Origin: Hyunsoonleella aquatilis
GTDB taxonomy: Bacteria; Bacteroidota; Bacteroidia; Flavobacteriales; Flavobacteriaceae
NCBI RefSeq assembly: GCF_014270105.1
Contig: NZ_JACNMF010000004.1
Span: 124,001-188,000 of the forward strand
DNA: 64,000 nucleotides
Reading direction: 5' to 3'
Part shown: in pieces, positions 3,035 through 23,935 of the stretch
How positions within the stretch are numbered: position 1 is the stretch's first letter
Layout of the letters: each line of letters begins with the position of its first letter
Translations under genes and position numbers: made by a program
Notes under the pieces: model-generated
Database searches by the model: none
Seen by the model: only the letters and a program-made list of their open reading frames with translations
What the model was told of the DNA's origin: nothing

Positions 3035-3128
3035 GCATGTATTTATAATAGCTTATCCAATTGATTAAATAAATGATAATCTGGACATCAAATTGGTGAA
3101 ATGAAGGACAGCAACTTTAAATAATTAA

Positions 3129-4193: not shown

Positions 4194-4247
4194 TTTTAAA
4201 AATTTATTTATTCTAATAATCTTTATTTAGATATCTGTTTGAATGTC

Positions 4248-5522: not shown

Positions 5523-5545
5523 GGTGACTGTTTTAGTTTAGTTGG

Positions 5546-7426: not shown

Positions 7427-7458
7427 GATTTATTCTTTTAGCTCTCGCCGAAGGACAA

Positions 7459-8496
7459 TTACTCTTTGGTTGGTAATGTTCCAACACCTAAAGTTGCTTC
7501 TTTAAACCACACTTCAGCATAACTTCCATTTGCATATTGTTTGGCTATGTTTCCGTTATAGGTTTCTGATTTTGTCGATTTTCCGTTGGCTTGATTGTAA
7601 GCACCTTGCTTAAAAAACTGTTTTTCACCAGCGTAGGCATTTTCACGTTCAACTCCAACCCGTCTTTTTGACGAATACCAATCCAACACTTGTTGCGGAA
7701 TATCTGATGCTTTAGCAAAATCTGATTTTAATAAGTTTTTAGTGAACCTTTTTGTTTCATGACCTTCACTCGTAAAAGTTAAATACATTATACCTTTATA
7801 AACATTAACTTCATAACTGAATTCTTCCCCTAAAGCTATGCCGTCTATAGGTTCCTCTGGATAACTATTTGGACTTGGACCTAGTATAGAAAAATCATGT
7901 CCCCAAACGGCGGTAGAGAAATCCCAACGACCATCGTTATTACCTTCTGTATTGATTTCATAATTCCAAAAAACAGAGCCTTTTTTGTGTCCCGGGAATT
8001 TCTTGTAATAGATTTTTAGCGGTTCATTTTCGTGTCCTTCATCACTGTGTATTTGTCCGACTACCACAGAGTAAGAAGAGCGAGCCGTTGCATCACCTGT
8101 TGTTGACACATGTTTAACTTTTAAGGTGCCAGTAAGTTTTCCCCCTTCTTCAGGTATCCATCGCCTTTTTTCTCCTAGTTCAGTTCTGGTATTACTTGAA
8201 TTTGGAGAAGTAATTCCTGAATTTGGAGTTTTGTACACTACCCAATCGGTTCCAGCTTCTTTTTCAACGTAAAAAAATCCTTGCTTTGCATAATTTATAA
8301 GTGAATCGGAGCGAGTACCATCTCCTAAAAGAATTTGCCATTTATTCATAAAAGAGATAACATCACTTGGATACGTCACCTTTTGTTTTTCAGGTTTATC
8401 ATCTTTCTTTACTTTTTCCTTACAACTACTTAAAGTCAAAATGAAGGCCATGAATAAAAATAAATGGAATGTAGATTTAATAGCTTTAGTTCTCAT
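7459..8496 (-). CDS. PL7 alginate lyase, lipoprotein (copy 2)
   Basis: Protein of 345 residues with a lipobox (LSSC, C25). The alginate lyase 2 domain shows RTEL at 104-107, QIH at 148-150 and the C-terminal FFKQGAYNQ box. It shares long identical blocks with the PL7 at 3129-4193 (for example VVVGQIHS and EPLKIYYKKFPGH), so the two are tandem-type paralogues separated by two genes. They may differ in endo/exo action or in preference for guluronate or mannuronate; the sequence alone does not decide. It lies between the PfkB kinase and the gluconokinase fusion in operon A. Confidence 0.9.
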   Translation of the reverse strand: MRTKAIKSTFHLFLFMAFILTLSSCKEKVKKDDKPEKQKVTYPSDVISFMNKWQILLGDGTRSDSLINYAKQGFFYVEKEAGTDWVVYKTPNSGITSPNSSNTRTELGEKRRWIPEEGGKLTGTLKVKHVSTTGDATARSSYSVVVGQIHSDEGHENEPLKIYYKKFPGHKKGSVFWNYEINTEGNNDGRWDFSTAVWGHDFSILGPSPNSYPEEPIDGIALGEEFSYEVNVYKGIMYLTFTSEGHETKRFTKNLLKSDFAKASDIPQQVLDWYSSKRRVGVERENAYAGEKQFFKQGAYNQANGKSTKSETYNGNIAKQYANGSYAEVWFKEATLGVGTLPTKE

Positions 8497-8525
8497 ATCA
8501 TTAGTTAATCGTTAGTTCTTTTTCA

Positions 8526-9527
8526 TTACCTCCTCAAAGCTCCAGAAGTATCCCCTTCCATAAGGTTTTGTACATTTTCAAGAGAAACGGTATTCACGTC
8601 TCCTGGAACGGTATGCTTTAGAGCGCAGGCGGCTGAAGCAAAATCTAAAGCTTGCTTATCTTCATAGTGCAATAATCCATAAATGAGACCCGCCGCAAAA
8701 GCATCACCTGTTCCAACACGATCTATTATGTGTGAGATATTAAGCATATCAGTTTTAATATACGCTTTGCCATTCCAAAGTTTACCTTGAATCTGGTGAT
8801 GCGAAGCGCTTATAGTTCTTCTTGTTTTCTTAACAATTTTTTTGATATTAGGATAAACATCTATCAATTTCTTGGCTAATATTTGGAATTTATCACCAGG
8901 ATCTCCCAATCCAAACATCTGGTTTATTCCATTACTACTTGTAATCACCACATCGCAGTGTTCTACCAAATTTGGAATGACTTCTTGCATGGTCTTTCCA
9001 TATTTCCACATGTTACTCCTAGAATTGATATCTCCAGAAACTGTAATCCCCATTTCATTGGCTGTTTTGATAGCATCGAGACAACACTTTGCTGCTCCTT
9101 CTGAAATTGCTGGTGTTATGCCTGTCCAATGAAACCAATCGGCATCCTTTAGAACATCTTCCCAATTCACCATAGAAGGTTCTATTAAAGAGAATGCGGA
9201 TCCTTCTCTTTCGTAAATAACCTCACTAGGCCTGTGCACAGCTCCCTTCTCTAAAAAGTACTTCCCAATCATATCATCACCATAAATAACATGCTCAGTG
9301 CTTAACCAATGTCTTCGCAAAAACTGTGTCGCTGCTTTACCAAGGGCATTATTTGGAAAGCGTGTAACATGGGATGCTTTCATACCCAAATAAGCACATG
9401 AGATGGCAACATTTGCTTCACCTCCTCCATAAACAAGATCAAAAGAAGATGCCTGAGAAAATTTTTCGTAACCTGGAGGTGATAAACGCATCATTACCTC
9501 ACCAAATGTTATTAATTTTTTAGCCAT
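8526..9527 (-). CDS. kdgK: 2-keto-3-deoxygluconate kinase (PfkB family)
   Basis: PfkB/ribokinase-fold kinase of 333 residues, cytoplasmic. Visible: the N-terminal GGGEANVA motif (34-41) and the ATP/catalytic signature DRVGTGDAFAAG with D275 as the probable base. In alginate catabolism KDG kinase makes KDPG, which an aldolase splits. Gene order (lyases on both sides) supports KDG as substrate. Because the carrageenan block encodes a galactonate dehydratase and an aldolase but no kinase of its own here, this enzyme may also serve 2-keto-3-deoxygalactonate; that is inference. The spacer to the PL6 gene upstream is only 5 bp, indicating co-transcription. Confidence 0.88.
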   Translation of the reverse strand: MAKKLITFGEVMMRLSPPGYEKFSQASSFDLVYGGGEANVAISCAYLGMKASHVTRFPNNALGKAATQFLRRHWLSTEHVIYGDDMIGKYFLEKGAVHRPSEVIYEREGSAFSLIEPSMVNWEDVLKDADWFHWTGITPAISEGAAKCCLDAIKTANEMGITVSGDINSRSNMWKYGKTMQEVIPNLVEHCDVVITSSNGINQMFGLGDPGDKFQILAKKLIDVYPNIKKIVKKTRRTISASHHQIQGKLWNGKAYIKTDMLNISHIIDRVGTGDAFAAGLIYGLLHYEDKQALDFASAACALKHTVPGDVNTVSLENVQNLMEGDTSGALRR

Positions 9528-9532
9528 AATTT

Positions 9533-11845
9533 CTAGTACATCAACTTCATTTTAAGGTTTTCTTCAACAACTATTTTTCCAGAATTGATAACTGTATTGT
9601 TGGTATGGGAATTATTCTTGGCTCCCCAAAGCAGGGCCACCAATTTTACAGGGTTATTCTTAAATGTGTTATTTGAAATATCTACATTCACGATACCTCC
9701 GGTATTTATTAAAATACCGTTCTCTTCTTTTGCACCACAATTTGTGAATGTACTATTAGAAACAAGAAGGTTTCCGCCAATGGTGGATTCGTCATACCCC
9801 CCTCGGTAGTAATCGATAACATTTTGTTTTACGTTTGAAAAATGGCAATTGTCTATTGTTAAATACTCGGTGTTGTAATCGCCTTTATCGTTGGTTTCTT
9901 CTGATAATTCCAAACCATTTTCACAATTGGAAATAGAGGTATTTTTAAAGGTGATACGCTCTGCAAACGATTGTTTATATACTTTTAGAGCAAAGTTAAA
10001 ATCACTGATGTTGCTACTCGAAACCGATAGTCCAAAATGGGTGTACATATTCTCTTTAAGGGTAGCAAATGCGTGTTGATTTCCTGTTCCTTTTAAAGAA
10101 ACCTCTTCAAGCGTTAAGAACCCTTCGGGATGCAATTCGAACAAAGGCGTGTTGTTTTCCTCTCCATAAAAAAGAACTGCCTTTGACTTGTCTTTCATTT
10201 TGATGGTGATACTTTTATTGATAATTAAAGGATTTGAAATAGCATGTTTTCCATTTCCTAAAACGATAATATCCCCATTTTCGGCTTTATCAATTTTTTC
10301 TTGAAGATTATCATTGATTTCAACAGTAATGATTGCGGGTTCCCTAGCTTCAACTTCATCTGAAAACCATGAGGGACCATATTTGGATTTATCTAAAATA
10401 GAAGGCACATTTGTATCAACATCAACCACCGCACCAATACTATTATTTTCATTTCTGGAATTACCAAAAAGGTCTTTTGATATGTTTTCAAACTCAAAAC
10501 CTTGATAAGGTTCTATATCAATATTTGATGACGGTAAGAATATATTTTCAGCAACTTTCTTCAATTCAAAATTGACACTTTTAATACCATCATCGTAGTT
10601 TTTATAAGGCACACCTTGGTTATTAATTGCATTGCTTTTAAAGGTAACGCCCTCAGCTTCATCATGTTCCACAACAGGAGATTTATCGCCTGTCTCGTTA
10701 TAAAGCACATTATTGGCTATCAAGGTTCTTAAAGGTCTTGCAGAACGAATTTCCGAAGGAGGCAGCACATCTTTTTGAGCTAAATTTTGCCCCACGCCAA
10801 ATTGCCATGGCGAATCACAATTCACATAGGTGTTATAGGCAACCACAACGTCCGTTACCTGATTGTAACGATTTAAAGGCGATTTTGGAATACCGTTCAT
10901 TACGGCCAACGGACTTCTAAAACTCTTTCCTTTTAGGTTGTAGAAATAATTGTTGGTCACCCAATGCCCAGTATTAATAATTCTGATGCCACCAATATTT
11001 CCATTTTTACCGTCACCTATAAAATAATTCCCGTCAATGGTACAGTAATTACCGTGCCTCGTTACTAAAGACCCTTCGCTTTTGTAAAACACGTTATTTC
11101 TAAACTCGTTGAAATTGGTTTTACTTGAAATAATTTCGACCTCGCCATTACATTCCTCAAACAGATTATTGGCCACTAGCGTATAACTTGGCGACATAGA
11201 CGAATAACTATCGCCAATCTGAATAGTTTCTCCACTGGCACCACCTTTAGGCGGACGTGGCCCAAAATGGTTATTTAGAATTTGATGGTAATTGTTGATG
11301 TGTTCATTGCCTTTTAAATCCACACGAATGGTAGGCCCACGATTGGTTTTACCCCTGATATAGCAATTGCTCAAGGTATTATGTCTACCCCAAAATTGTA
11401 CCCAGCGATCTGAATCATCACGATTCATTTTATTGAAATCTTCTATAACACAATTTGTAACCGTACAATGATTTCCAATAGTCTCATCGTCTATTCGAAA
11501 CTCCACCACGGCATCGCTTGGCGAATAGCCATTTCTAAAATGAAGGCCGTCAACTACTAAATGGCTCCCTCCAAATTTTAAATTGGAAACACCTTCAATA
11601 AATACCTTTCCAGGGGTTTCTGCTTGGATAATAATGGGGTTACTTTCTGTCCCTTCGGCATCAAATTTTATCTCAACATCCTTCCAAACTCCATTGGTCA
11701 AAATAATATGATCGCCTTCTTTACTGTTGTCAATGGCCTCATTAAGTTCTTCAATATTAGATACTTGAATTAAACTTGTTAATTTTTTCTGTTCGCATGA
11801 AGTTAAAGCAAACGCTATAAGAATAATTGTTAATATTTTTTTCAT
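9533..11845 (-). CDS. PL6 alginate lyase, two-domain beta-helix lipoprotein
   Basis: The start is placed at the ATG at 11845, which gives a clean lipoprotein signal (ILIAFALTSC). A longer in-frame start at 11902 would overlap the upstream gene. The product has 770 residues. The N-terminal right-handed beta-helix is PL6/chondroitinase-B-like: NHFG at 192-195, GGASGETIQIG at 201-211, E235, E237, K242 and R263. The E-E-K-R spacing equals that of E243/E245/K250/R271 in chondroitinase B, so the catalytic Lys/Arg pair and calcium ligands are intact. A second beta-helix fills about 500-770, as in longer PL6 enzymes. Probably depolymerises alginate, often MG-rich stretches. Confidence 0.9.
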   Translation of the reverse strand: MKKILTIILIAFALTSCEQKKLTSLIQVSNIEELNEAIDNSKEGDHIILTNGVWKDVEIKFDAEGTESNPIIIQAETPGKVFIEGVSNLKFGGSHLVVDGLHFRNGYSPSDAVVEFRIDDETIGNHCTVTNCVIEDFNKMNRDDSDRWVQFWGRHNTLSNCYIRGKTNRGPTIRVDLKGNEHINNYHQILNNHFGPRPPKGGASGETIQIGDSYSSMSPSYTLVANNLFEECNGEVEIISSKTNFNEFRNNVFYKSEGSLVTRHGNYCTIDGNYFIGDGKNGNIGGIRIINTGHWVTNNYFYNLKGKSFRSPLAVMNGIPKSPLNRYNQVTDVVVAYNTYVNCDSPWQFGVGQNLAQKDVLPPSEIRSARPLRTLIANNVLYNETGDKSPVVEHDEAEGVTFKSNAINNQGVPYKNYDDGIKSVNFELKKVAENIFLPSSNIDIEPYQGFEFENISKDLFGNSRNENNSIGAVVDVDTNVPSILDKSKYGPSWFSDEVEAREPAIITVEINDNLQEKIDKAENGDIIVLGNGKHAISNPLIINKSITIKMKDKSKAVLFYGEENNTPLFELHPEGFLTLEEVSLKGTGNQHAFATLKENMYTHFGLSVSSSNISDFNFALKVYKQSFAERITFKNTSISNCENGLELSEETNDKGDYNTEYLTIDNCHFSNVKQNVIDYYRGGYDESTIGGNLLVSNSTFTNCGAKEENGILINTGGIVNVDISNNTFKNNPVKLVALLWGAKNNSHTNNTVINSGKIVVEENLKMKLMY

Positions 11846-11886
11846 GATTAGTTTAGTTTTACTTTTATGGTGTTCAAAGCTTTTGG

Positions 11887-12843
11887 CTATGCGGATTGCC
11901 ATAACTTTTGAACCGTATTCAGATCTCTTTTCATGGCGTCATAAACCACTTTTTTGTCTATTGAAATTTTACTATGCCCCTTTTCCGCGCCACCCAAATC
12001 ATATTCCAAATGCAGTGAGACAGGTGGATTTAATTTATGCTTTTTAAGAAGCTTAAAGTATTTTGAGAAATCTACCATTCCATCGCCCATTGGCACGTTA
12101 ATAGGCTTCCATTGGCCATTAACTTTTCCCCATTTAAAGTCCTTCAATACGATAGTTTTTATTTTTGGATGCAGAAGCTGAAAGCCGTTTTCCCATGAAA
12201 ATCCACCTTCCACAATAGCGTGCCTTATATCGTATTGTGTTCCAAAATAATCAGGATTTACAGTTTTTAACATTTCATGTATTTCCCAAAAAGATGCCCC
12301 TATACTAGTACCAGCATGATTTTGATAGCACCCTACGACACCAAGTTTTTTATTAAGTTCTCCAAGTTTTTTGATTTCATTCTGATAATGATTTAAGGAT
12401 TCCTTTAGGGATAAATCTTTCTTAAATTTAAACCAATTTGTTCTGTAATACTCAATTCCCAAAGTTGAGGCAGTATTCAATATTTGAACATCTAAAGGAT
12501 TCTCAACGCTCCCAATACTAGTCGTAATCATTTTACACACCGCACCACCTTCTTTAATTTCGGTAATGGCCTTTGGCAAGTCTAATACTACTGATTCAGG
12601 AAGTACATGACCATTCGGGCGCACAGTTAAATCTACTCCATTAAAACCCATCTCAGAAGCCATGGCTCCAGTTTCCTTATAATCCAAAAATTGCAAGTGT
12701 TTGGAGAAAATATGAACCGATAATTTATCATCGTATGAAACATTTTCTAGAGCAAAAAGAGGATTTAGGATATTAACAAAAGGAATTATACTTCCCACAA
12801 GGGCGGTTTTCTTGATAAAATCTCTTCTATTTTGATGTGGCAA
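11887..12843 (-). CDS. Tat-exported sugar phosphate isomerase/epimerase-like TIM barrel protein
   Basis: First gene of operon A, 318 residues. The start codon is TTG at 12843; a stop codon lies two codons upstream and no ATG precedes the conserved part. The N-terminus has a twin-arginine signal (RRDFIKKTAL, then a hydrophobic run to LFA). The rest is a xylose-isomerase-like TIM barrel (AP endonuclease 2 family) with a metal-site-like EYDLGGAEKGH stretch near the C-terminus. The substrate is unknown; in this operon it may isomerise or epimerise a uronate or unsaturated sugar in the periplasm. Family clear, function not. Confidence 0.7.
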   Translation of the reverse strand: MPHQNRRDFIKKTALVGSIIPFVNILNPLFALENVSYDDKLSVHIFSKHLQFLDYKETGAMASEMGFNGVDLTVRPNGHVLPESVVLDLPKAITEIKEGGAVCKMITTSIGSVENPLDVQILNTASTLGIEYYRTNWFKFKKDLSLKESLNHYQNEIKKLGELNKKLGVVGCYQNHAGTSIGASFWEIHEMLKTVNPDYFGTQYDIRHAIVEGGFSWENGFQLLHPKIKTIVLKDFKWGKVNGQWKPINVPMGDGMVDFSKYFKLLKKHKLNPPVSLHLEYDLGGAEKGHSKISIDKKVVYDAMKRDLNTVQKLWQSA

Positions 12844-12860
12844 TTTAGCTTAATTTTAAA

Positions 12861-12913
12861 TTGGTTTACCAGTTTGGTTTACCAAAAGTAATAATATTTT
12901 TTGAGCGACCAAA
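12861..12913 (-). promoter_or_regulatory. Alginate promoter and operator, copy 3 (operon A)
   Basis: Operator at 12861-12886 with two TTGGTTTACCA half-units 13 bp apart. The minus-strand -7 box TACTTTTG is at 12883-12890 and the -33 TTTG at 12910-12913, with a 19-bp spacer. It drives the seven-gene operon A, whose first codon is at 12843. Overlap of operator and -7 box suggests repression, lifted by an alginate-derived inducer. The regulator (a GntR-type protein would suit) is not in the window. Confidence 0.8.
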
Positions 12914-13304
12914 TTTTTTAACACGAAAGCCTGAAAATTAAACCATCTTGACTAGAACAAGAAATGCCTTTTGGTGTTAGCTTTGAGCCGAGCTATCGAA
13001 AACCTGCATATTTTCGAATTTAAAAAAATATCTAAGCGAGTGGGCCATTTAATGCCCCATAATACAAAACGGAGTAGATAAAAAAACGGAGGACCTGTTA
13101 ATTTTAACAAATTCTCAGTTCTAGTGACCTCAAAAGGGAAAAGTTCAAACTTTTTAAAAGACATCGGATCGCTCAAAGAGTTTTAATATTTCCATTATAA
13201 TTTAAATATAAAATTATGAATATACAGTGTAATTACTGGATAATTAAGACATAATACTTGAGGCAACAACTCATTATATTTGAGGTATTTAATCATGATT
13301 TAGA
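12914..13304. other. Intergenic region between the divergent alginate operon and the 13305 gene
   Basis: About 390 bp. TATATTTG at 13275-13282 is a good -7 box for the plus-strand gene at 13305, but no -33 box at the right distance was found. A 74-codon minus ORF at 12952-13176 has no recognisable domain, no credible leader and an unusual composition; it was not called as a gene. Nothing else was recognised. Confidence 0.5.
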
Positions 13305-14474
13305 ATGAAAACCATATTTCAGAGGATCCTAATTTGTATTGTCTTAATTTCAACCAGCATTGGATATTCCCAAAACGATAAGATCGAAATCAACGGAATT
13401 ATTTTGGACGAAGCACAGATGCCCGTTCCATTTGTGGCCGTCGGTATTGTTAAAAAATACATAGGTACTTCGAGTACGGAAGACGGTGAATTTTCATTTT
13501 TTGTAACAAAAAATGAGCTGCAGGATTCGCTTTCAATCTCAAGTTTGGGCTTTGACCCTTACAGTATAAAAGTTGCCGATTATTTAAAACTTGAAAAGAA
13601 GGAAATTGTACTAAAAGAAACGATTACTGAATTGGATGTGGTTAAACTTTTAACTCCAAAAGACTACGTAATTAATGCCATGGAGCGCCTGAAGGAAAAC
13701 ACCTTATCAGAACCCCACAGGCTTGAAATGCTATACAGAAGGACAACTACGGAGGCTGATAAGCCAAAATTCTTAATTGAGAATTATATTTTATTGAGAG
13801 ACAAGGGTCCTGCTTACGGCCCAAGTGTCATTCAGGTTGCAGAATCCCGAAAATCGGCAGATTATCGCATTTGGAAGGGTAAGCAATGGCAACATTCCGT
13901 AAACAGCCTGTTTAATTTAAATCCTTTTAGGCCTCACCAATCCCAACATAAAAGAAATCTAAAAAAATTTAATTGGAAAAAGATCGGGGAATCATCCTAT
14001 GAAGGTGAAGATGTATTGGTAATCAAAGGGCAAAATCCAGATATTGATTGGGAAAAAATAACAATGTATATCGGTGTTGATTCTTATAAAGTGTATCGCA
14101 TTGAACGCGGTCCCTCCCTTTTCATTTACAAAAAGCACAACAGCGGAAAACTTGTTTTAAGCTACTTTAAAAACGAGTGGAAACTTAAAAAACATATGGT
14201 TCCCAAGGAATACCACAATACTGATGCCGAAACCTCGCATTATAAAACCGAGGCATTTGTTTACAGCACCAGTACGGATAAAAAAGAAGTTCGAAAGGTT
14301 TACCCTTTTGGTGGCGATACAGATATGGGAATTATTGAATTGCCATATAATCCCGATTTTTGGAAAAACCTGAGTATGCCACCAGACACTAAATTTTATA
14401 AAAGTCTTAAAGAAGGATTGGAGAGCAATTACGGAGTGCCTTTGGAAACCCAGTTTGAATTGGTGAATCAATAA
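13305..14474 (+). CDS. Secreted carboxypeptidase-regulatory-like domain protein
   Basis: Protein of 389 residues with a signal peptide (cleavage near GYSQ). Residues 25-105 are a carboxypeptidase-D regulatory-like beta-sandwich (GIILDEAQMPVPFVAVGI, then the GEFSF turn). The rest resembles the uncharacterised C-terminal half of many Bacteroidetes proteins of this type. It is one of only two plus-strand genes, and its stop is 25 bp from the stop of the GH82 gene (tail to tail). It probably separates the alginate and carrageenan blocks and need not belong to either. No catalytic motif was seen. Confidence 0.6.
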   Translation: MKTIFQRILICIVLISTSIGYSQNDKIEINGIILDEAQMPVPFVAVGIVKKYIGTSSTEDGEFSFFVTKNELQDSLSISSLGFDPYSIKVADYLKLEKKEIVLKETITELDVVKLLTPKDYVINAMERLKENTLSEPHRLEMLYRRTTTEADKPKFLIENYILLRDKGPAYGPSVIQVAESRKSADYRIWKGKQWQHSVNSLFNLNPFRPHQSQHKRNLKKFNWKKIGESSYEGEDVLVIKGQNPDIDWEKITMYIGVDSYKVYRIERGPSLFIYKKHNSGKLVLSYFKNEWKLKKHMVPKEYHNTDAETSHYKTEAFVYSTSTDKKEVRKVYPFGGDTDMGIIELPYNPDFWKNLSMPPDTKFYKSLKEGLESNYGVPLETQFELVNQ

Positions 14475-14499: not shown

Positions 14500-15855
14500 T
14501 TACTTAAAAGTAGATTGTAATGGGTTTTGAGTATTTCGCTCTTTAGGTTTAATAAAAATTGTGGCTGATCGCTGATTCTCGCAATTCTCAAAATCGTTCA
14601 AGGTGCTACTGGTTATAAATCCATTTTTAGGTACTTCTGGTGAGAATCCTGAGTGTTTTACATCATCTACATCAATCTGATAAGTTCCTTCTGGATTATT
14701 AAAAGATTTGTAACCATCTAATGATGTATAGTACACCGCAGATAGAGCTGGTGCTTTGTAAGATTCATTATCAAGATTTTTTTCAACACTTATATACTCG
14801 CGCAAAGCGCAGGGAATAAACTTTAATCGCATAGCCCTTACCTGGGCTTGGTTACCGTATTCTGCAAAAACATTTGCAATTACAGAGTCTTCTGAAAATG
14901 TACCTGCAACGTGCCCTGTACCTAGCTGATCTTTTTTCCGGGAAAGGAACCCAAAATTAATGGCTACGGAAGCTTCGCAACTAATAGTGCTTATATTTCT
15001 TATATCTACAACACCTTGATGAATGGTATGTGGAGATATCATAACAGCATGAGCACCATTCTTGCAAGAAATATTTCTACCGTATATATTATTCATTACT
15101 ATTGTCTTATCGGTAAGATATCTATCAGCCAAACCTTTATAACCTGATTCCAGTCGTAGTGTTACGCCACCTATACCTTGTAAATTTCTAAACAATAAGT
15201 CCTGCCCTACCTGAATTTGAACAACACCATACCCATAGTGTGCATTTTCAACTCCAATATTTTCTATAATACCAAATGAAGGAAAAAAAGCTGGTGTACC
15301 GCCAACAGCCTCTGACGTAATGGCGTTAAACTTAGTATTGTTATCAATAACCTTAAAATCCGCAATCTTAAAATTCTGTGCGTTACCAAGTTGAAACGCC
15401 CTAATTTTTTCGTTCGGTTTAAAATTTGAAAAATCGAAAGTAAACGTTCCTTTATCAAAACCTTGAAAACTCCAATTTGTTACCTTATTAAATCCATTTT
15501 GGTATCCAGCCCTAAACAGAGCATTCTTAGGGGTTTTGGTTTTGAAAATCGTACCTGACTCTACTTTGATATGTACATTGGACTTCATGTGTATTTGTTC
15601 CAGAACATAAGTGTCAGACTTAATTATGAGAACCCCACCACCCCGGCTTTCAAGTTCATCTATTTTGTATTGCAAACTCCTACTATCATTAAAAGCGTTA
15701 GAAAATTCTAAAATATTAACATCGTGAACAATTGGATTAAAGAAATAACTATCATCTGGAAGTTTTCTATCCAGCGGACTACTTTGAGACACTCCATGCA
15801 AAGAGCATATCAGAAATAATATTTTTATAAATATTTGATTTTTTTTATTTATCAT
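14500..15855 (-). CDS. cgiA: GH82 iota-carrageenase-like beta-helix enzyme with one substituted catalytic position
   Basis: The start is taken at the ATG at 15855 (clean signal peptide to GVSQS, no overlap); a longer in-frame start at 15918 would run into the upstream gene. The product has 451 residues. It is recognisably GH82 by comparison with Alteromonas CgiA as I remember it: QIHMKSNVHIKVES, the FSFQG/VDF region, GYGVVQ, GGVTLRLES and MISPHTI. Equivalents of CgiA Q222, E245 and H281 are Q213, E236 and H276. The CgiA D247 position is G238, so one reported catalytic acid is missing. Expected to attack iota-type or hybrid carrageenan outside the cytoplasm, or to have shifted specificity. It is the last gene of the 28634-14500 operon. 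Confidence 0.8.
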   Translation of the reverse strand: MINKKNQIFIKILFLICSLHGVSQSSPLDRKLPDDSYFFNPIVHDVNILEFSNAFNDSRSLQYKIDELESRGGGVLIIKSDTYVLEQIHMKSNVHIKVESGTIFKTKTPKNALFRAGYQNGFNKVTNWSFQGFDKGTFTFDFSNFKPNEKIRAFQLGNAQNFKIADFKVIDNNTKFNAITSEAVGGTPAFFPSFGIIENIGVENAHYGYGVVQIQVGQDLLFRNLQGIGGVTLRLESGYKGLADRYLTDKTIVMNNIYGRNISCKNGAHAVMISPHTIHQGVVDIRNISTISCEASVAINFGFLSRKKDQLGTGHVAGTFSEDSVIANVFAEYGNQAQVRAMRLKFIPCALREYISVEKNLDNESYKAPALSAVYYTSLDGYKSFNNPEGTYQIDVDDVKHSGFSPEVPKNGFITSSTLNDFENCENQRSATIFIKPKERNTQNPLQSTFK

Positions 15856-15862
15856 ATTTAGC

Positions 15863-16990
15863 TTATAATCTACTTTTATTCTTTTGATAAAATACCTCCA
15901 AATCTTGTTCATTTGCATTCAAGGCTTTATGATTTTTTAAAAACCAATATACTCGTCTGGCTATTAAAAAATCTGATTCTAATAAAGGAACTACATTATT
16001 TAAAAGTATCTCTGAGTAGTGTTGTTTCTTTTCCATAAGATTCAGAAGCATTGATACTTCTTGATAAGAGCTTAAACTACCAAATGTTGTACTCAAATCA
16101 TCTAATTGGATTTTTGGAACATCAGAAGCATTTTGCAATGATTGTATTACTACCAATTTTTGTTTTTTACTACCTTCAAAAAATAGTCGCTTTGTTGCAT
16201 CATAATACAATTCAGAAGGTGCCTTCTCAAAATAACCAAATGCTTTCTTCAACAAAGCTTCATCTTTCAAAACTTTAAGAATAATGGTGTCGATAATTTC
16301 TTTTGAAAACAAATCCCTTCTATTCAATTCGTTAATAGCAATATTGAAATAGGTTTCATTTTCTTTTAAAATAAAATCTTGAAGTTGTGTGAGCGACAAG
16401 GATTTTCCCGTTATATTTTTAATTTTTGAAACCACCTCTCCATTCGCCCAATGCCAAAGGGTATAACAGGTTAAAGCGGCCCCAGGCACGGTGTCCTTTT
16501 CGTCCAGTTCTAAAGCAGTTGGGCCAGAAACTGCATCCAGGTCATCAATATCCGATTCTTGAGGAACCGAAAGGATTTCGTCGTAGTACACATCCTTAAA
16601 TGGCGAATTAGGATTCGCCATAATACTTTGAATTTTTAGGTAATCTTCAGGTTCGAAAAGATCGGCTTCATATTTTTCAAGAGTCCGGCCTTTAGCAATT
16701 TTATACTTTTGATATTCTCCTATGTTGTTCCAATATAACGTTACAGGAATCTCTTTGCATACTTGCTTCAAACAGATAACAGAATAAACGTCCATCACAT
16801 ACTGAACGGGATATCCATCTTCATTTTGAATTTCTTGAAGAATCGCATTTACCGGTTTTTTTTCTCCTGGATGATTTATAAGTACGTCATGCAAAATTGT
16901 TTTGTTGATTGCTTGCCTCTTTTCAAAATTGTAGAGCAATAAAATTGGCAAAAACAACCACAAGTATGTTTTAACAAAAGATATCATCAT
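15863..16990 (-). CDS. Unknown membrane-anchored protein with an FMN-binding-like segment and helical C-terminus
   Basis: Starts at ATG 16990, overlapping the stop of the FAD oxidoreductase gene (ATGA), so translation is probably coupled. The product has 375 residues. Residues 4-20 form one hydrophobic N-terminal anchor or signal. Two cysteines sit in ICLKQVCKE (C73, C78). Residues 150-181 read DLDAVSGPTA followed by VPGAALTCYTLWHW; DAVSGPTA resembles the DxVSGAT segment that carries covalent FMN in NqrC/RnfG-type domains, with Pro for Ala. The C-terminal half is helical and HEAT-like. Family and function are unknown; a redox partner of the neighbouring flavoprotein is inference. Confidence 0.55.
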   Translation of the reverse strand: MMISFVKTYLWLFLPILLLYNFEKRQAINKTILHDVLINHPGEKKPVNAILQEIQNEDGYPVQYVMDVYSVICLKQVCKEIPVTLYWNNIGEYQKYKIAKGRTLEKYEADLFEPEDYLKIQSIMANPNSPFKDVYYDEILSVPQESDIDDLDAVSGPTALELDEKDTVPGAALTCYTLWHWANGEVVSKIKNITGKSLSLTQLQDFILKENETYFNIAINELNRRDLFSKEIIDTIILKVLKDEALLKKAFGYFEKAPSELYYDATKRLFFEGSKKQKLVVIQSLQNASDVPKIQLDDLSTTFGSLSSYQEVSMLLNLMEKKQHYSEILLNNVVPLLESDFLIARRVYWFLKNHKALNANEQDLEVFYQKNKSRL

Positions 16991-18909
16991 GCATAGCAAC
17001 GGATTTCAAAAAGTTTTACGTTTTCAACGCCGTAAGTTTCGGTCATTATAAGTTTGACCGCCGTAATTTGTATGGGTTTAAAATTGAATTTAATCAATCT
17101 TGTTCGGTTTTCTGAAATATTGCCCAAGTCTATCCATTTTCCATTGGCTCTTCCTTGAAGACGCATTGCTTTTAGCATTTCCTTAGGTACGCTATTGCTG
17201 AAAAGTTCATCGTTTCTGCTATCCTTTCGCATCATAATGTTGCGATTGACATTGGTATCGCACTTAAGTTCTACTTTGGAAATAGAAATAGGATTTTCCC
17301 ATTCCAACTGAAGCTCTGCAGGCAAACCATCAGATTGCCAATGGTTTATTTTTCCATAGATATCCCGGGAAATACCGTTTAAAAGGTTTTTAGCATCACC
17401 CGAAGATGTTGTGGATGCAAAAATTAAACTTGCATTTTTAGCTAAATCCAATGGGTCTTGAGCGGGACGTTTTGGAATGTAAACATCATCCCGCATTAGC
17501 TGTTCCTGCAATTCATTTATATGATTTTGATAAACGCCTCTCGGAAGAACATTGTGTTTTTTACAAAGCATTGCTGCCGTACCCACGGCTTGCCCTTGCA
17601 ATGCGCAAGTGGCCATAATTCTTGAGGAGGACAGCGCAATATGTGTTTGACTTACATTTCTACCAGCAAACATGAGATTGGGTACATTCTTAGAATACAA
17701 ACTTCTAAATGGAAACTCATATACTTCCTTAAAGTGATAGTGGAAATAACTTGGTGGCTCCGAAATATTTTCGATGCCTCCCGGATTGTGTTCATCTAAA
17801 GACCACCCTCCAAATGCTACGGCATCTTCAAAATGTTTATGCTCTGTCATATCGCGTTCTGATACGATATAGTCGCCTAAAAAACGGCGGGACTCCCTCC
17901 GTCCAGGAACAGAACCTACCCAATCTAAAGCCAAATTTTCTGCTTCAGGAAAATGACCAGAATTCTTAATATAATCCCAAACGCCATGAAGATAAGCCAT
18001 CAACTTATGCCTGTTTTCCTCTGCATCTCCAATAATATCATCATCGCTTCCTATTTCAATCCACCAAATACCATCTTCGTACCATTTGAAATGTCTGCGA
18101 GGATGTGCGCCTTCATGCGTATATTTTATCGCATAAGAAGGCGGACTGTATTTCATGGGTCTTCCCATATCTTTTGAAGACATCAATAATGATGCCCCCA
18201 TTTGCCACCCATCTGGTTCATCGGGCGCATAAGTTTCATTAAATTCTGCTTTTCCTTCCCTACCTGTTCTATATTCAGCTCCTGCGGTGGCCGCTAATAG
18301 CCCGTCACCTGAACAATCGATAAAAATTGGTGCATTTATGGTAAACATTTTTTCGGTAGTAGCTTGCCAACACATTGCAGATTTTATGGTATTCCCATCC
18401 ATAACCGCCTCAACAGCCTGTGTATTCAACATCAAGGTTAAGTTTGGCTCTCGAACTACAAAATCGTACATCACATGATCAAAAACAGGAAAAGATTCCT
18501 GTGCATTTTCAAAGCGGTTGTGCAATAAAATTTCTTCGATAATTCCTGTTTCCCGTTCAGCTTTTCCTTTTAAATCGTTCACCCCATTTAAGTGTACCCT
18601 TATTTCACTTGAAGCATTACCGCCCAAAACAGGCCTGTCCTGAACCAACACTGTCTTAGAACCATTTCTTGCCGCCGCTACTGCTGCACATATTCCTGCA
18701 GCACCGCCACCAACAACGACTACATCATAGTCTTTAGTTATTTTTCTTTTAGGTGTACCCGTTTTTCCCGTGCCGAGGTGATACCATTTATCTTTGGGTT
18801 TATCATAAACAATATCATTGGTGCTAGCACAAGATGTAAAAATTAATGGCACGGAACCAGCCGCAATGGCCGCGGTTGTTCCTTTTTTAAAAAAATCTCT
18901 TCTTTTCAT
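16987..18909 (-). CDS. Tat-exported FAD-dependent oxidoreductase, lipoprotein
   Basis: Protein of 640 residues. Its N-terminus is a twin-arginine signal (MKRRDFFKKG) ending in a lipobox-like TSC (C27), so it is exported folded and probably anchored. The FAD-binding Rossmann motif is VVVVGGGAAGICAA (63-76), and GGNASSEIRVHLNG is typical of the FAD_oxidored family. The last ~150 residues look like a beta-sandwich, discoidin-like. Enzymes of this family occur in polysaccharide loci, but no substrate is established. It could oxidise a carrageenan-derived sugar in the periplasm, and it is coupled to the unknown gene downstream. Confidence 0.72.
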   Translation of the reverse strand: MKRRDFFKKGTTAAIAAGSVPLIFTSCASTNDIVYDKPKDKWYHLGTGKTGTPKRKITKDYDVVVVGGGAAGICAAVAAARNGSKTVLVQDRPVLGGNASSEIRVHLNGVNDLKGKAERETGIIEEILLHNRFENAQESFPVFDHVMYDFVVREPNLTLMLNTQAVEAVMDGNTIKSAMCWQATTEKMFTINAPIFIDCSGDGLLAATAGAEYRTGREGKAEFNETYAPDEPDGWQMGASLLMSSKDMGRPMKYSPPSYAIKYTHEGAHPRRHFKWYEDGIWWIEIGSDDDIIGDAEENRHKLMAYLHGVWDYIKNSGHFPEAENLALDWVGSVPGRRESRRFLGDYIVSERDMTEHKHFEDAVAFGGWSLDEHNPGGIENISEPPSYFHYHFKEVYEFPFRSLYSKNVPNLMFAGRNVSQTHIALSSSRIMATCALQGQAVGTAAMLCKKHNVLPRGVYQNHINELQEQLMRDDVYIPKRPAQDPLDLAKNASLIFASTTSSGDAKNLLNGISRDIYGKINHWQSDGLPAELQLEWENPISISKVELKCDTNVNRNIMMRKDSRNDELFSNSVPKEMLKAMRLQGRANGKWIDLGNISENRTRLIKFNFKPIQITAVKLIMTETYGVENVKLFEIRCYA

Positions 18910-18924: not shown

Positions 18925-20583
18925 TTATGTTTTTGGTATATTTCCTTGCCAACTTTTATTGAATTGAATCATAAGTTTTTCAACTATGTCAGGATGCACC
19001 TCTGCAATATTTTTAGTTTCTAACGGATCGGTATTGTGATCGTATAATTCTATAAAAACAGGTTCTTTTTCAGAGTTTTCTCTGTCTTTCCAAACGATAA
19101 AGCGATAGTCTTTTGTCCGCATGGCGTAGCCCATAAGATTGTTTTCAAATAAATTCCTATCCCATGTATCACCTTGTTGTTTGATAATTCGTTCTTCAAC
19201 TTCCTCGAGTAATGGCCCGAAATAGGTCTCGCGCATTGCAGGCCTGATTGGAAATGCGCCCCATTCCCGTAATGCCGGTGAAGGAAACTGACTGAATACA
19301 GCCGGTTTCCAATCCAAATCTGGGTTTTCAATTAAAGGTTTAAAACTTGTACCCTCAACATGTGTTGGCATTTCTAAACCAGCCAAATCTGCCAATGTAG
19401 GATACATATCGATTAATTCTACCAACGCATCGGTGGTTTTTCCTTGACTTCCTTTTGGCATATCATGTGTCCAAATCATCATGGGAACTCGCGTCGCAAT
19501 TTCATAATTGGTAGCCTTTCCCCAAATGCCCATATCGCCTAAATGCCAACCGTGGTCGCTCCAAACGATAATGATGGTGTTATCTCTAATGCCTGCTTCT
19601 TCCAAAGCGGAAATCATTTTCCCTATTTGGGCATCTACATAGCTTATACAGGCCAAATAGGCGTGCTTCAAGGTAACCGCTAAAGAATCCTTTATTTTAC
19701 CTTTCTTTGGAATTCCACTTCTAACGCGTAATTCAAACGATGGGTGCAATCCCACTTGGGCACCCTTTTCAGGGCTTTTGGTTTGTGTTGATAGTTTGAT
19801 ATCCTCCCTGTTGTATAAATCCCAATACTTTTTTGGCGACACCCAATTTAAATGTGGTTTGTTAAAGCCTAAACCCAAAAAAAATGGTTTCTCTGGATTG
19901 CTTTTTAGCATCTCCTTCATGGTTGCGATAGCCAATTCGGTGTTGTAACCATCATGATAGGTGTTATCTGGAACATCAGCACTTTCGTAAGCCTGCCCCA
20001 TGGCCAAACCATATTTGGCAACCTCTCCATATTTTTCCATCATGGTCTTTCTCGTTGCAAAGCGTTCCTCAATATTTTCTTTTAACGCAAATCCAATAGG
20101 ATTTTTTATGCCTTTTGAAGTCATACTATCTATTGCGGGTAATTTACTCCAAGACTTTTCATCATCTAAATCACCATGATGAAATATTTTACCCGTGTAG
20201 ACGGTTTCATACCCATTATTTTTGAAATGCTGAGGAAGTGTAACAACATCAGGATTAGCTTCCCTAAATTTGATATAATTATGAAACACACCACTGGTTT
20301 CGGGCCGAATTCCAGTTAGTAAACTGGCCCTGGAAGGCCCACATATAGCTTGTTGGCAATACGCCTTTTCGAATAGTAAACCCTGACTAGCCAATTTATC
20401 CAAATTGGGGCTTATTGCAATTTCTGAACCATAGCATCCTAATTCTGGACGCAAATCGTCAATACCAATAAAAAGGATATTAGGTTGTTTTTGAACCGCT
20501 TCCTTCTTTTCTTCACAACCTAAAAAAACAAAAACTAATAGGCTGAAAATTATTGCCTTACTATAAATATCCTTATTTAACAT
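18925..20583 (-). CDS. S1 sulfatase, iduronate-2-sulfatase-like, lipoprotein (paralogue A)
   Basis: The start is taken at ATG 20583; the longer reading frame would start with TTG inside the upstream GH16 gene. The product has 552 residues. Lipobox at LGC (C23). The formylglycine cysteine is C81 in CGPSRASLLTG, with the calcium-site D42-D43 in GIDDLRPE and a later WSDHGWHLGD motif. The ELGCYGS and WSDHGWHLGD features match the iduronate-2-sulfatase-like S1 group. Probably desulfates carrageenan oligosaccharides in the periplasm, after maturation by an anaerobic or FGE-type system not seen here. Close paralogue of 26985-28634 in the same operon. Confidence 0.9.
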   Translation of the reverse strand: MLNKDIYSKAIIFSLLVFVFLGCEEKKEAVQKQPNILFIGIDDLRPELGCYGSEIAISPNLDKLASQGLLFEKAYCQQAICGPSRASLLTGIRPETSGVFHNYIKFREANPDVVTLPQHFKNNGYETVYTGKIFHHGDLDDEKSWSKLPAIDSMTSKGIKNPIGFALKENIEERFATRKTMMEKYGEVAKYGLAMGQAYESADVPDNTYHDGYNTELAIATMKEMLKSNPEKPFFLGLGFNKPHLNWVSPKKYWDLYNREDIKLSTQTKSPEKGAQVGLHPSFELRVRSGIPKKGKIKDSLAVTLKHAYLACISYVDAQIGKMISALEEAGIRDNTIIIVWSDHGWHLGDMGIWGKATNYEIATRVPMMIWTHDMPKGSQGKTTDALVELIDMYPTLADLAGLEMPTHVEGTSFKPLIENPDLDWKPAVFSQFPSPALREWGAFPIRPAMRETYFGPLLEEVEERIIKQQGDTWDRNLFENNLMGYAMRTKDYRFIVWKDRENSEKEPVFIELYDHNTDPLETKNIAEVHPDIVEKLMIQFNKSWQGNIPKT

Positions 20584-20588
20584 GCACT

Positions 20589-21524
20589 TTATCTCTTTTC
20601 CCAAACCCTAATGTAATCAACATACATAGTTGTTGGCATACCTTCCAACTGCTTTTTAGCATCTTCATTTACCAACGGATTCACTGCTCTATTTGCATTG
20701 TTTGAGAATTCAACAAAAGGCCTTCTTAAGCCTAAAGATGCCGTTACATTCATTGGTCTATACCAATCTGTATTGGGCTTACTGGCAATTTTTACACCAT
20801 CAACATACCAAATGATTTTTGTTGCATTTACCTCGCAACCGTAAACATGATAATTTTTGCTTGGGTCGTCCTCTAATCGGTATTTGTTCAATTGCGATTC
20901 AGGATGTTTTTTTGGTCTGAACCACACGCCCTTTCCGTTTACTTTTTTAACCAAATGAAGGTTATGATCGGTATCTTTTATGTCGTCTTGATGCCCTTTG
21001 TACCAATCAAACTGTTGTAACTCAACCACATCTATTTCACAATATATGGTTTTGCCATCGGCTACATCTCCATCAAAATCACTGTAGAGCCAAAACGAAG
21101 GACAAACGCCCCAGCCGTTTTTGGGACCGGGAACATCTATAACAGCTCCTTTTATTCTTGCTTCTACATAACCCGTTGTAAAGGTTGCTTTAGATTTTAG
21201 TATGCCCGATTTAAAATAGGTTCCGCCGTCTGAAACATTATCGGCATTGTGCCTCATGGTCAATTCTGCTATACCGCTTTTAGCCTTTGCATTGGTTTCG
21301 TTATTCCATTTCCAGCCCGTGGTATTGGGCAAATAAGAGTTTTTATACCACTTTGCCCAATCTATGTCTTCATCGTTAAACTCATCTGACAAGGCGTTTA
21401 CCAATTGCCATGAATCATTGGTATTTGAAGTTGCTAACGGCTGAAATATTTTAGATTGAACACCCTTTTGAACTTTACAATTCGTGATAAGCACAATTAA
21501 AAAAATCCATACTAGCTTCTTCAC
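20589..21524 (-). CDS. cgkA: Kappa-carrageenase, GH16
   Basis: Protein of 311 residues starting at GTG 21524, with a lipobox (LITNC, C16). The GH16 catalytic motif EIDVVE places E163, D165 and E168 at the same residue numbers as the published P. carrageenovora kappa-carrageenase active site. Other segments also match that enzyme as I remember it: DEFN, YVEARIKGA, DHNLHLV, VWFRP, IWYVDGVKIA and LGLRRP. Expected to hydrolyse the beta-1,4 bonds of kappa-carrageenan, acting at the surface or in the periplasm. It sits between the GH42-like gene and a sulfatase with gaps of 32 and 5 bp. Confidence 0.9.
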   Translation of the reverse strand: MKKLVWIFLIVLITNCKVQKGVQSKIFQPLATSNTNDSWQLVNALSDEFNDEDIDWAKWYKNSYLPNTTGWKWNNETNAKAKSGIAELTMRHNADNVSDGGTYFKSGILKSKATFTTGYVEARIKGAVIDVPGPKNGWGVCPSFWLYSDFDGDVADGKTIYCEIDVVELQQFDWYKGHQDDIKDTDHNLHLVKKVNGKGVWFRPKKHPESQLNKYRLEDDPSKNYHVYGCEVNATKIIWYVDGVKIASKPNTDWYRPMNVTASLGLRRPFVEFSNNANRAVNPLVNEDAKKQLEGMPTTMYVDYIRVWEKR

Positions 21525-21556: not shown

Positions 21557-23935
21557 TTACTTAACCTCTAATAACAATACTTCTTCTGATACCAAATCGA
21601 ATTCAGCCTCCATTTCATTTGATGTCATTAAATCTTTGATGGTTGTTGGTGCACCAGATTTTAAGGACAGTTTAATTTTAGCAGTATTGTGACCTACGTT
21701 TAGTAAATTCACCAAATACGAGCCATCATCTTGTTTCACAACTCTTGAAATTACCGTTTTAAAGTCCAATCCGTTATCAGATTCTACAATCACATCGGGC
21801 ATTTGATCTGCCACTTGCGTTAAAGCAGTTTCTTTAATTTTAGCCATGTCGCCATCTAAGGTGATTAAATTGCCTTTACCAGCGGTTAATTTCTTATTGC
21901 GCTTTTTATCGTATTCGTCCATTGATAAACTCTCAGATGAATCCAAAATTACAGTTCCTCCGCTGTTTAAATAAGATTGTAACGCATCAAATTCTGAGTT
22001 GGTTACATATTTCGTTTTATAAACAACTACGGTATTCCAAGTACTATTATCCTGTTTTTCGATGATGTTCTTCGTAACAAAACCTAACGGAAGCCCTTCA
22101 AAGAACAACGACTTATACATTTTAGTGGCTTCAGTCATATATTTTGGTGTATTGATAGCAGATGTTTCCGAGTAAAACAAACGTAACGGACGTGATTGTC
22201 CACGAAGCGCAATAATTTCTTCTGAAAATGAATTCAAATCGAACATTACTTGGGTAACCTCGTTAGTGATATGCGGTTGCATGTTGTTTGAACCTGCGTA
22301 AGCGCCACCCAAACCCGGATCGAAGAAATTCAATTCGCCTTCTAAACGGTCTTCTGGCGAACCATCTGGGTCGCGCGCCCAAAACCATCCCGTATTGGCA
22401 TCCATACCCATAAGGGTAGCTAACCAATATACGTTTCTAACATAGCTTGTGCGCATATCCAATTTTCTATACATACCCGATGACAAGAAATGAGATTCAG
22501 AATTCACATTAATCTTTTCCGGTGCTACCGACTCCAAAAAATCATGCAAAATGGCCATCCCGTCCCATTTATAAGCATAGTCTTTATGCCAATCAGAGTT
22601 AATATGCGGGCGAATACTTGGGTCTCCCAAGGCTTTTGCATCATGACCAATCATGGTAGTTAATTCTGTAAGTGCTTCAAAATCCATTCCGTGAGAACGG
22701 GAATCTTCATAAAATGTTCGTGGAAATAGTTTAATATGCGTATCTGCCTCGGGGTTAACCGAGTGCAAATTTTCTTGATTAAAAGTGAACCATTCCGTGG
22801 TTCTGTGCATGTTATAACGACACCAATCAAACCAAATGGGTTTTCCTTGAAGTGCTGTGGCTATCGGTATTTCTATTTCAACCTTATTAAAATTGACATA
22901 AGAGGTTTCCCAATTGGCATTCAATTTTTGAATGTTATTATTGTACTTTTTCTTCAACCAACCTCTAAAGTTATTCAGGGTATATGAAGAAATAGCATTC
23001 ATCTCCTGGTATTTAGCCGTCCAATGGCCTTTTTCCGAATACCAGTGCGGTTCGTTAGCAAAAACGTAACCCAACTCCGTAACTTTTTTGCCTTTGGTGA
23101 GTTCACCTGTATGACGAATGATTTTTCCCCATAAATCCTTGGCAACAGGGTTATCAATGTCAAACCCTAAAAACAATGAGCGCCCTTTACGAACTTCTGG
23201 CTCCTTCTTCTCAACCCACTCTGGAATACCCATGCCCCAATAATACAAAAACCCAATATTGGTATCAGGAATACCAGTAAGCTCTTTCATCAATTCTTCA
23301 TCCCAAGTCCCATCCTCTTTCATTAAAAAAGAGTTAATCGCGCGATCGTGATCTACAGGATATAAATTCTCACCTCCATGATACAGCGCCCCTAAATGAT
23401 CGTTATAAACTTGCTCGTTTGTTAACGGTTGCCCCACTGTTTTGGAGAAATAATCATAAGGAAAAATAGGTTTGCCATTACTAACAAACATATTATCACC
23501 AGCTTTGGTGTTTTGCCAATCTACCTTATTAACGGGTCTTCGCTTTATTTTACCATTAAGCTCTTTGTTTAAATCATCAATACTTTTATCTAAAATTTGA
23601 ATCACTTTTTTGCGTTCAAAATCTGGCAACATTTCGGCTAAAGAATCTTTATTGGGCGCATAATAGCGCTCGTAACCAAAAAGCTTTGCTATAGCGTCTT
23701 TATTCGCTTCATCCCAATTTGCAAACTTTATAAATTCCTTGGAAAACCATAATGTTGTTTCTTCTCGTGTTACATCAATGTCTTTAGAACGAGCCTTATC
23801 CATAAGCCTCTCAAGGGTTTCTATTTTAGATAGGGCTTCTTGTTCTAGTGTTTTTTCAGATTCACAAGACAGAATATTGCCTACTAAAAATAGGCCAATA
23901 GCAAGTTTTAATAAATTAGATTTTAAAATATCCAT
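21557..23935 (-). CDS. GH42-like beta-galactosidase (clan GH-A), lipoprotein
   Basis: Protein of 792 residues with a lipobox (ILSC, C24). The TIM-barrel core shows ANEPHWY with E295 as the candidate acid/base, and NVNSES with E480 as the candidate nucleophile. FRGWLKKKYNNNIQKLNANW (323-342) is a GH42 hallmark. An extra N-terminal helical region (about 30-130) and a C-terminal trimerisation/beta domain are present. It could be an exo-beta-galactosidase on carrageenan oligosaccharides; the carrageenan-active GH167 family is a related alternative. I cannot separate the two by eye. Confidence 0.7.
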   Translation of the reverse strand: MDILKSNLLKLAIGLFLVGNILSCESEKTLEQEALSKIETLERLMDKARSKDIDVTREETTLWFSKEFIKFANWDEANKDAIAKLFGYERYYAPNKDSLAEMLPDFERKKVIQILDKSIDDLNKELNGKIKRRPVNKVDWQNTKAGDNMFVSNGKPIFPYDYFSKTVGQPLTNEQVYNDHLGALYHGGENLYPVDHDRAINSFLMKEDGTWDEELMKELTGIPDTNIGFLYYWGMGIPEWVEKKEPEVRKGRSLFLGFDIDNPVAKDLWGKIIRHTGELTKGKKVTELGYVFANEPHWYSEKGHWTAKYQEMNAISSYTLNNFRGWLKKKYNNNIQKLNANWETSYVNFNKVEIEIPIATALQGKPIWFDWCRYNMHRTTEWFTFNQENLHSVNPEADTHIKLFPRTFYEDSRSHGMDFEALTELTTMIGHDAKALGDPSIRPHINSDWHKDYAYKWDGMAILHDFLESVAPEKINVNSESHFLSSGMYRKLDMRTSYVRNVYWLATLMGMDANTGWFWARDPDGSPEDRLEGELNFFDPGLGGAYAGSNNMQPHITNEVTQVMFDLNSFSEEIIALRGQSRPLRLFYSETSAINTPKYMTEATKMYKSLFFEGLPLGFVTKNIIEKQDNSTWNTVVVYKTKYVTNSEFDALQSYLNSGGTVILDSSESLSMDEYDKKRNKKLTAGKGNLITLDGDMAKIKETALTQVADQMPDVIVESDNGLDFKTVISRVVKQDDGSYLVNLLNVGHNTAKIKLSLKSGAPTTIKDLMTSNEMEAEFDLVSEEVLLLEVK

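Follow-up and report, generated by a model that had tools for sequence, protein, structure and literature searches.

The window analysed here is a stretch of 64,000 nucleotides from Hyunsoonleella aquatilis (contig NZ_JACNMF010000004.1, positions 124,001 to 188,000), and its subject is a coupled gene pair on the minus strand that encodes a FAD (flavin adenine dinucleotide) oxidoreductase with an export-type N terminus and a 375 amino acid (aa) protein. The window contains a sulfated-polysaccharide cluster with SusC/SusD, several sulfatases, two GH16 (glycoside hydrolase family 16) genes, a GH127 gene, an aldolase-family protein and a sugar transporter. A first-pass annotation had placed the pair, its strand and its ATGA overlap, and had pointed out one N-terminal hydrophobic segment, the cysteines C73 and C78 and the stretch DAVSGPTA in the 375-aa protein; the sequence, the translation and a structural model confirmed each of these. 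The features of the pair are the following.

15863-16990, minus strand: gene of the 375-aa protein, putative flavinylation-motif partner protein of a new family (reading frame, family alignment, model)
16987-18909, minus strand: gene of the FAD oxidoreductase, export-type, PF12831, with the twin-arginine N terminus KRRDFF (Pfam and reading of the N terminus)
16987-16990, minus strand: ATGA stop/start overlap of the two genes (sequence)
16931-16984, minus strand: N-terminal hydrophobic helix of the 375-aa protein, residues 3-20, membrane anchor or signal (translation and model)
16757-16774, minus strand: C73-x4-C78 pair, Cys in 75 and 76 of 77 alignment rows
16517-16537, minus strand: motif D152-A-V-S-G-P157-T158, with the P157 codon CCA at 16520-16522 and the predicted acceptor Thr158 at 16517-16519
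15881-16477, minus strand: helical repeat domain, residues 172-370 (model; ARM-repeat proteins top the Foldseek list at E 0.02 or worse)

On the minus strand a sulfatase gene is followed after 15 bases by the FAD oxidoreductase gene, which ends in TGC TAT GCA TGA; the ATG of the 375-aa gene consists of the last A of GCA and the following TG. The FAD protein matched PF12831 (FAD_oxidored) at full length (E=1.9e-92, profile positions 1-416 of 416). Its N terminus (MKRRDFFKKG...), read by eye, displayed a twin Arg, a hydrophobic stretch and Cys27, a pattern that suggests export by the twin-arginine translocation (Tat) pathway. The earlier label of a Tat FAD oxidoreductase lipoprotein thus stands for the enzyme class and the twin-arginine leader, whereas its lipoprotein part is weaker, because the FTSC before C27 is not a canonical lipoprotein box and some relatives of the enzyme have no Cys in their first 32 residues.

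A search with the 375-aa window protein revealed no Pfam match at E<=1 and a single NCBIfam match (E 0.11) far below its cutoff. Judged by its sequence, the protein belongs to a large, new family with 119 non-redundant open reading frames (ORFs) in the samples. These derive from a first set of 55 ORFs (window included) and a second set of 78, which have some genomes in common; the 133 ORFs were merged to 119 by identity of the C-terminal 250 residues, with the two pieces of a split gene in locus L166 counted apart. Counting the own genome, family matches were found in 8/60, 41/397, 9/296 and 9/395 genomes of overlapping samples, and two matches, in G135 (E 3.8e-4) and G529 (E 5.1e-6), were marginal. 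A pattern scan of named genomes yielded 76 loci, mainly from marine Bacteroidota (Algibacter, Tamlana, Aquimarina, Cellulophaga, Maribacter, Flammeovirga and others); seven of them lie outside Bacteroidota by their record titles, in Kiritimatiellota-type, Verrucomicrobia or Planctomycetes records. Two plasmid records had a family match, one annotated as 'hypothetical protein' and one unannotated, and a close-relative scan of viral contigs revealed no family relatives. Related pairs occur in many marine bacteria degrading sulfated polysaccharides.

That the two genes keep together elsewhere was borne out by the family as a whole. Of the 119 non-redundant ORFs, 106 have a PF12831-type gene as their immediate same-strand neighbour (3 of them on both sides), and 109 have one within five genes. 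By distance, such a gene was found at <=50 bases in 51/55 ORFs of the first set and at <=100 bases in 62/78 of the second, with 6 more at 114-219 bases. Representatives of the divergent partner types also match PF12831. The protein distances of the partners correlate over 103 pairs (Spearman 0.77; none of 999 permutations reached this value, the permutation maximum being 0.13), a correlation to which shared species history contributes. Genomes with the family carried a strong PF12831 match in 7/8 cases, compared with 7/52 without it (Fisher p 6e-5). The gene pair is thereby supported as a conserved unit.

Both partners carry export features. An N-terminal hydrophobic stretch was read in 102/103 of the FAD-partnered family proteins, and 78/103 of the partnered enzymes have RR in their first 30 residues; the other 25 have the hydrophobic stretch alone and may use Sec. 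By a simple, crude sequence rule, 101/104 family-adjacent PF12831 proteins have export-type N termini, the three exceptions being two second enzymes in tandem arrays and one possibly mis-started ORF. The genome G013 combines a single family gene with three twin-arginine enzymes (L009, L229, L230). A leaderless PF12831 type of ~759 aa stands directly after a solute-symporter-like gene in seven loci of six genomes (L225-L228, L234-L236), without the partner protein; both of the symporter-like genes that were scanned are SSF by Pfam. This type is probably a cytoplasmic branch.

The motif of the 375-aa protein was aligned in 77 rows, comprising the window and 76 relatives (two of the 78 ORFs, from the split L166 gene, were left out). 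D152 was found in 76 rows, G156 in 75 and T158 in all 77; position 155 is S in 60, T in 12 and A in 5 rows, and position 157 is A in 67, E in 8 and P and S in 1 each. The first set of 55 ORFs displayed T in 54 and S in 1 at the acceptor position, with A in 52, P in 2 and S in 1 at the Ala position. The pattern D..[STA]GA[TS] occurs in 115/133 family ORFs compared with 5/1313 other ORFs of at least 100 aa from the same loci. A minimal flavinylation motif, D-x-x-[S/T]-G-A-[S/T], in which FMN (flavin mononucleotide) is attached to the final residue, is given in the consulted part of PMC12052999, and the motif [S/T]GA[S/T] in that of PMC11334425. As read from the alignment, the loop of most relatives (D-x-x-[STA]-G-A-T) is this published motif for the flavin transferase ApbE.

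The first-pass annotation had proposed to look for an ApbE-like transferase, and two are encoded in the own genome, one ~17 kb from the sole FMN_bind gene and one beside a DUF3570 gene. Among the carriers searched, 63/63 genomes encode ApbE, compared with 97/148 in a phylum sample; these 63 comprise the clear-match carriers and the genomes of 17/76 pattern-scan loci, the marginal carriers G135 and G529 being excluded. Two related loci have ApbE inside the cluster, in the order sulfatase, FAD enzyme, ApbE, family gene (L094) and family gene, FAD enzyme, ApbE (L088), which is stronger evidence than genome-wide presence.

The structure of the 375-aa protein was modelled with AlphaFold2 from an alignment of 68 sequences (67 of the 78 second-set ORFs and the window, near-duplicates and partial genes excluded), with a mean predicted local distance difference test (pLDDT) score of 90.8 and a predicted template modelling (pTM) score of 0.84. 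The layout is an N-terminal hydrophobic helix, a beta-sheet N domain of five strands and helices, the motif loop (151-158, pLDDT under 50) and a helical repeat C domain. A Foldseek search revealed no match at E<=0.001 for the whole model, with ARM-repeat proteins first (E 0.02), and none for the N domain (pLDDT 83.9); in the latter search NqrC (4xhf_D) ranked fifth (TMq 0.42, E 0.92), with the best TM-score among the matches listed, and RnfG ranked 24 (E 2.4).

The note of resemblance to the covalent-FMN segment of NqrC/RnfG was also examined at the level of profiles. PF04205 (FMN_bind) matched 8/68 family members at E<=0.1 (best 0.0018) and the NCBIfam profile rnfG matched 1/68 (E 0.00036); the window protein gave no FMN_bind match above the gathering score, and none at E<=1. 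Alignment of the family with 30 FMN_bind proteins by hhalign looked promising (probability 68, E 5e-5; controls with a reversed alignment and with the FAD enzymes gave 0.37 and 0.64). Masking of the seven motif columns raised the value to E 0.11, whereas masking of eleven other columns left it at 5.7e-5, so that homology to FMN_bind is not claimed and the profile match is one of the motif only. In a sequence search of PDB the best of five matches, 'FMN4 domain 1' (E 0.25, not significant), was also aligned at the motif. Membership in the NqrC/RnfG FMN-binding domain is hence not upheld; what the profile searches leave of the suggestion is a loop that in relatives corresponds to the ApbE motif. 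Because the masked match disappears, we treat the family as a predicted ApbE substrate of its own kind that is defined by its motif.

The same results bear on an alternative in which the 375-aa protein carries no flavin and serves the FAD enzyme as scaffold, anchor or maturation factor, with another role for the loop. The helical repeat C domain with its weak ARM/HEAT resemblance, the non-canonical motif of the window copy and the lack of FMN_bind homology outside the motif would suit such a protein, but the motif is fixed at one column across very divergent sequences (Thr in 77/77), is rare elsewhere (5/1313 other ORFs) and is accompanied by ApbE inside two clusters, and we regard a flavin-free function as quite unlikely. 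Alternatively, the C73-C78 pair could act as the redox carrier by thiol-disulfide exchange, with the loop being secondary. Both Cys are near-invariant and L173, a member outside Bacteroidota, has lost both together, yet Thr158 is slightly better conserved than the pair, C-x4-C is not the thioredoxin spacing and the models place the two residues in a strand-turn-strand, as for a structural disulfide; a Cys-based carrier appears very improbable.

The best reading of the pair, given the conserved coupling, the ApbE motif and ApbE in genome and clusters, is the extracytoplasmic electron-transfer role suggested by the first-pass annotation. We consider it fairly probable that the family is a new predicted group of ApbE substrates whose members carry electrons outside the cytoplasm for the exported FAD enzymes encoded in sulfated-glycan clusters. 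The course of events that we infer is as follows. The PF12831 enzyme would bind FAD in the cytoplasm and exit by Tat; outside the membrane it would oxidise (or reduce) a sugar or sugar derivative made available by the neighbouring sulfatase. The 375-aa protein, which probably carries a covalently attached flavin, would be held by its N-terminal helix, with ApbE attaching FMN to Thr158 in the exposed loop. Electrons would pass from FAD to FMN and from the FMN protein via a further acceptor to the respiratory chain, and docking of the enzyme probably falls to the helical repeat domain.

Genes upstream of the pair place it in its catabolic context. For these, 26 orthologous loci were compared after merging to 19.

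18925-20604, minus strand: sulfatase gene (PF00884 by Pfam), with an ortholog directly upstream of the FAD ortholog in 18/19 loci
20589-21524, minus strand: GH16 gene, cluster context; nearest NCBIfam profile kappa-carrageenase, below cutoff (232 vs 350 bits)
21557-23935, minus strand: gene of a 792-aa protein, cluster context; best Pfam E 0.077, relative of at least 150 bits in 12/19 orthologous loci
33112-35085, minus strand: GH127 gene, cluster context

The spacing of the sulfatase and FAD orthologs ranges from a 34-base overlap to 48 bases apart, and between these two genes and the family gene a second FAD gene is inserted in L066 and ApbE in L094. A sulfatase cluster (representative PF00884) was found within five genes in 68/119 and a CstA-type transporter at +1 in 25/119; these BLAST-cluster counts can include a member twice, whereas the FAD neighbours were recounted per distinct member. 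One CstA-type transporter was scanned and matched PF02554, and such genes can stand directly after the family gene, e.g. L064:8567-10009. The gene order suggests that the sulfatase may release the sugar that serves as substrate. That this is a carrageenan sugar and is oxidised, as the first-pass annotation had proposed, was a guess. The window cluster looks carrageenan-like, with its GH16 nearest to kappa-carrageenase, its GH127 and its sulfatases, yet the family occurs across many sulfated-glycan clusters and the first GH16 of the window has a relative in just 4/19 orthologous loci; we rejected carrageenan specificity. The GH127 has a relative in 3/19, a count that is uninformative with the gene 14 kb away and loci that reach ~8 kb.

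Electrons could also flow the other way, from the respiratory chain to the FMN protein and on to a reductase; fumarate-reductase-like flavoenzymes that have FMN-binding domains work in this manner. The consulted part of PMC8238504 names characterised flavinylated FAD enzymes, and these are reductases. The sugar-catabolism context with its sulfatases and glycosidases, in which no sign of a terminal acceptor is seen, is weak evidence against this direction, and we think it unlikely.

Several genes around the pair are of separate interest. An alginate-type cluster (window 696-11902; chondroitinase-B-like protein, alginate lyases, kinase, dehydrogenase) adjoins the sulfated-glycan cluster. Near the pair, positions 11887-12843 encode a xylose-isomerase-like TIM barrel protein (PF01261), whose N terminus is of the RR type and which has relatives at 150 bits in 0/122 loci. 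The protein encoded at 14500-15918 displays a weak rhamnogalacturonidase-like stretch and has a relative in 1/122 loci; when translation is taken from the first start codon, its gene runs into the end of the 375-aa gene.

A number of observations weigh against the electron-carrier role favoured here. None of the 11 same-genus genomes has a family gene, which makes it an accessory gene in this genus. The presence of ApbE in the carriers agrees with the role but is not strong proof, because ApbE was found in 15/15 members of this bacterial family in the phylum sample; inside the cluster it lies in just 2/119. Masked hhalign and Foldseek revealed no homology to FMN_bind outside the motif, and among the shared neighbours no membrane electron acceptor was recognised, no dedicated search having been made. 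Export-type PF12831 genes without a family neighbour exist as well. In the family loci, 6 such enzymes and 5 leaderless ones lie more than 250 bases from any family gene; another 16 PF12831 genes (from 18 matches outside family loci) comprise 9 that are leaderless by eye and 7 of export type, and the fetched stretches hold no family gene. The rule that every exported PF12831 enzyme has the partner was therefore rejected: since 101/104 adjacent enzymes are export-type and unpartnered ones nevertheless occur, export is nearly necessary and not sufficient for an adjacent partner.

Conversely, 13/119 family ORFs have no adjacent FAD gene: L094 (ApbE between), one L166 piece, L015, L086, L092, L146, L156 (3.2 kb away), L145, L154, L157, L161, L162 and L173, with L145, L157 and L162 being contig-end cases. 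Among the seven members outside Bacteroidota (by record title) only L159 has the adjacent gene; six are without it, two of them at contig ends, and on present evidence the coupling is therefore essentially a Bacteroidota feature. These six (L145, L154, L156, L161, L162, L173) keep the motif, or nearly so. In L015 and L086, which belong to one genus, CxxCH-bearing, lipoprotein-like genes lie nearby, immediately adjacent in L015 and separated by one gene in L086.

L015:8930-9616 and 12101-13528, L086:4726-5100: shorter members of the family that have no FAD enzyme and lie close to CxxCH-bearing genes

The arrangement looks as if a cytochrome had replaced the FAD enzyme, which suits an electron-carrier role.

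The remaining points against concern the motif itself. The window copy reads SGPT instead of SGAT, a Pro in the Ala position that the first-pass annotation missed when it likened DAVSGPTA to a covalent-FMN segment. In another, model protein an A-to-V exchange at this position reduced flavinylation to about half, according to the consulted part of PMC12052999, so that the window protein may be flavinylated less well or not at all. A Glu in this position (GET) with the acceptor Thr kept was found in 8/77 rows; these variants are L123, L124, L126, L129, L148, L149, L150 and the second copy of L135 (Aquimarina, Cellulophaga, Croceitalea, Maribacter, Flagellimonas). The family could thus be flavinylated while the window copy, and perhaps the Glu variants, have weak or lost flavinylation, the pair working without FMN or decaying; this overlaps with the electron-carrier reading, which is made at the level of the family. 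The nearest relatives, L104-L107 at 54-62% identity, have SGAT in nearly unchanged surroundings, and the codon CCA of P157 is one base from an Ala codon. On the other side, the window copy has an intact reading frame, operon and Cys pair, and the 30 FMN_bind proteins from kin genomes carry A, G or S in the Ala position, so that some variation is tolerated. Since Thr is retained in 10/10 rows (of 77) without Ala at 157, Thr158 seems still to matter, and weak or lost flavinylation of the window copy strikes us as rather unlikely.

A bolder proposal, for which we see not quite an even chance, is that the family is an undescribed ApbE-flavinylated class with its own fold and a helical repeat docking domain, which would be dedicated to accepting electrons from exported PF12831 dehydrogenases in the periplasm. 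The oxidation of desulfated algal sugars by marine bacteria would then take place outside the cytoplasm, with the electrons entering respiration directly, and in one lineage a c-type cytochrome would replace the FAD enzyme. If true, exported PF12831 enzymes would be linked to the respiratory chain through a dedicated flavin-carrying partner, ApbE would gain one more substrate family, and an oxidative step would stand beside sulfate removal in algal polysaccharide breakdown. Our literature search turned up no paper connecting PF12831, or a pair of this kind, with flavinylation, carrageenan or sulfatases, and the literature found does not give a role or electron acceptor for PF12831 enzymes of polysaccharide clusters. 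A figure legend in the consulted part of a carrageenan paper (PMC5698469) mentions a 'fumarate reductase/succinate dehydrogenase' gene, which could correspond to this enzyme or to a different one.

Among known systems, NqrC/RnfG (FMN_bind, PF04205) share the D-x-x-S-G-A-T loop with the 375-aa family, and their N-terminal membrane helix has a counterpart in its N-terminal hydrophobic helix. The family differs from them in its extra C-x4-C and helical repeat domain, in a partner of PF12831 instead of NQR/RNF and in giving no Pfam match above cutoff. The window enzyme is itself a full-length FAD_oxidored protein (PF12831), distinguished by its export-type N terminus and its coupled partner, which the seven leaderless ~759-aa paralogues do not have. 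Fumarate-reductase-like flavoenzymes (PF00890) with an FMN-binding domain, such as urocanate reductase, combine an extracytosolic FAD enzyme with a covalent-FMN module, as described in the consulted part of PMC8238504. The pair would resemble them as an exported FAD enzyme served by a predicted covalent-FMN module, and is unlike them in its PF12831 enzyme, in its module, which is encoded as a protein of its own and comes from a different family, and in its setting of sulfated-glycan catabolism. DUF2271 and DUF3570 were recognised as ApbE substrates by [S/T]GA[S/T] and the context of ApbE genes, not by the FMN_bind profile, with co-expression as proof (PMC8238504). As a predicted, motif-defined ApbE substrate, the 375-aa family is comparable to DUF2271 and DUF3570 before their proof; it differs in belonging to another sequence family and in having ApbE mostly elsewhere in the genome.

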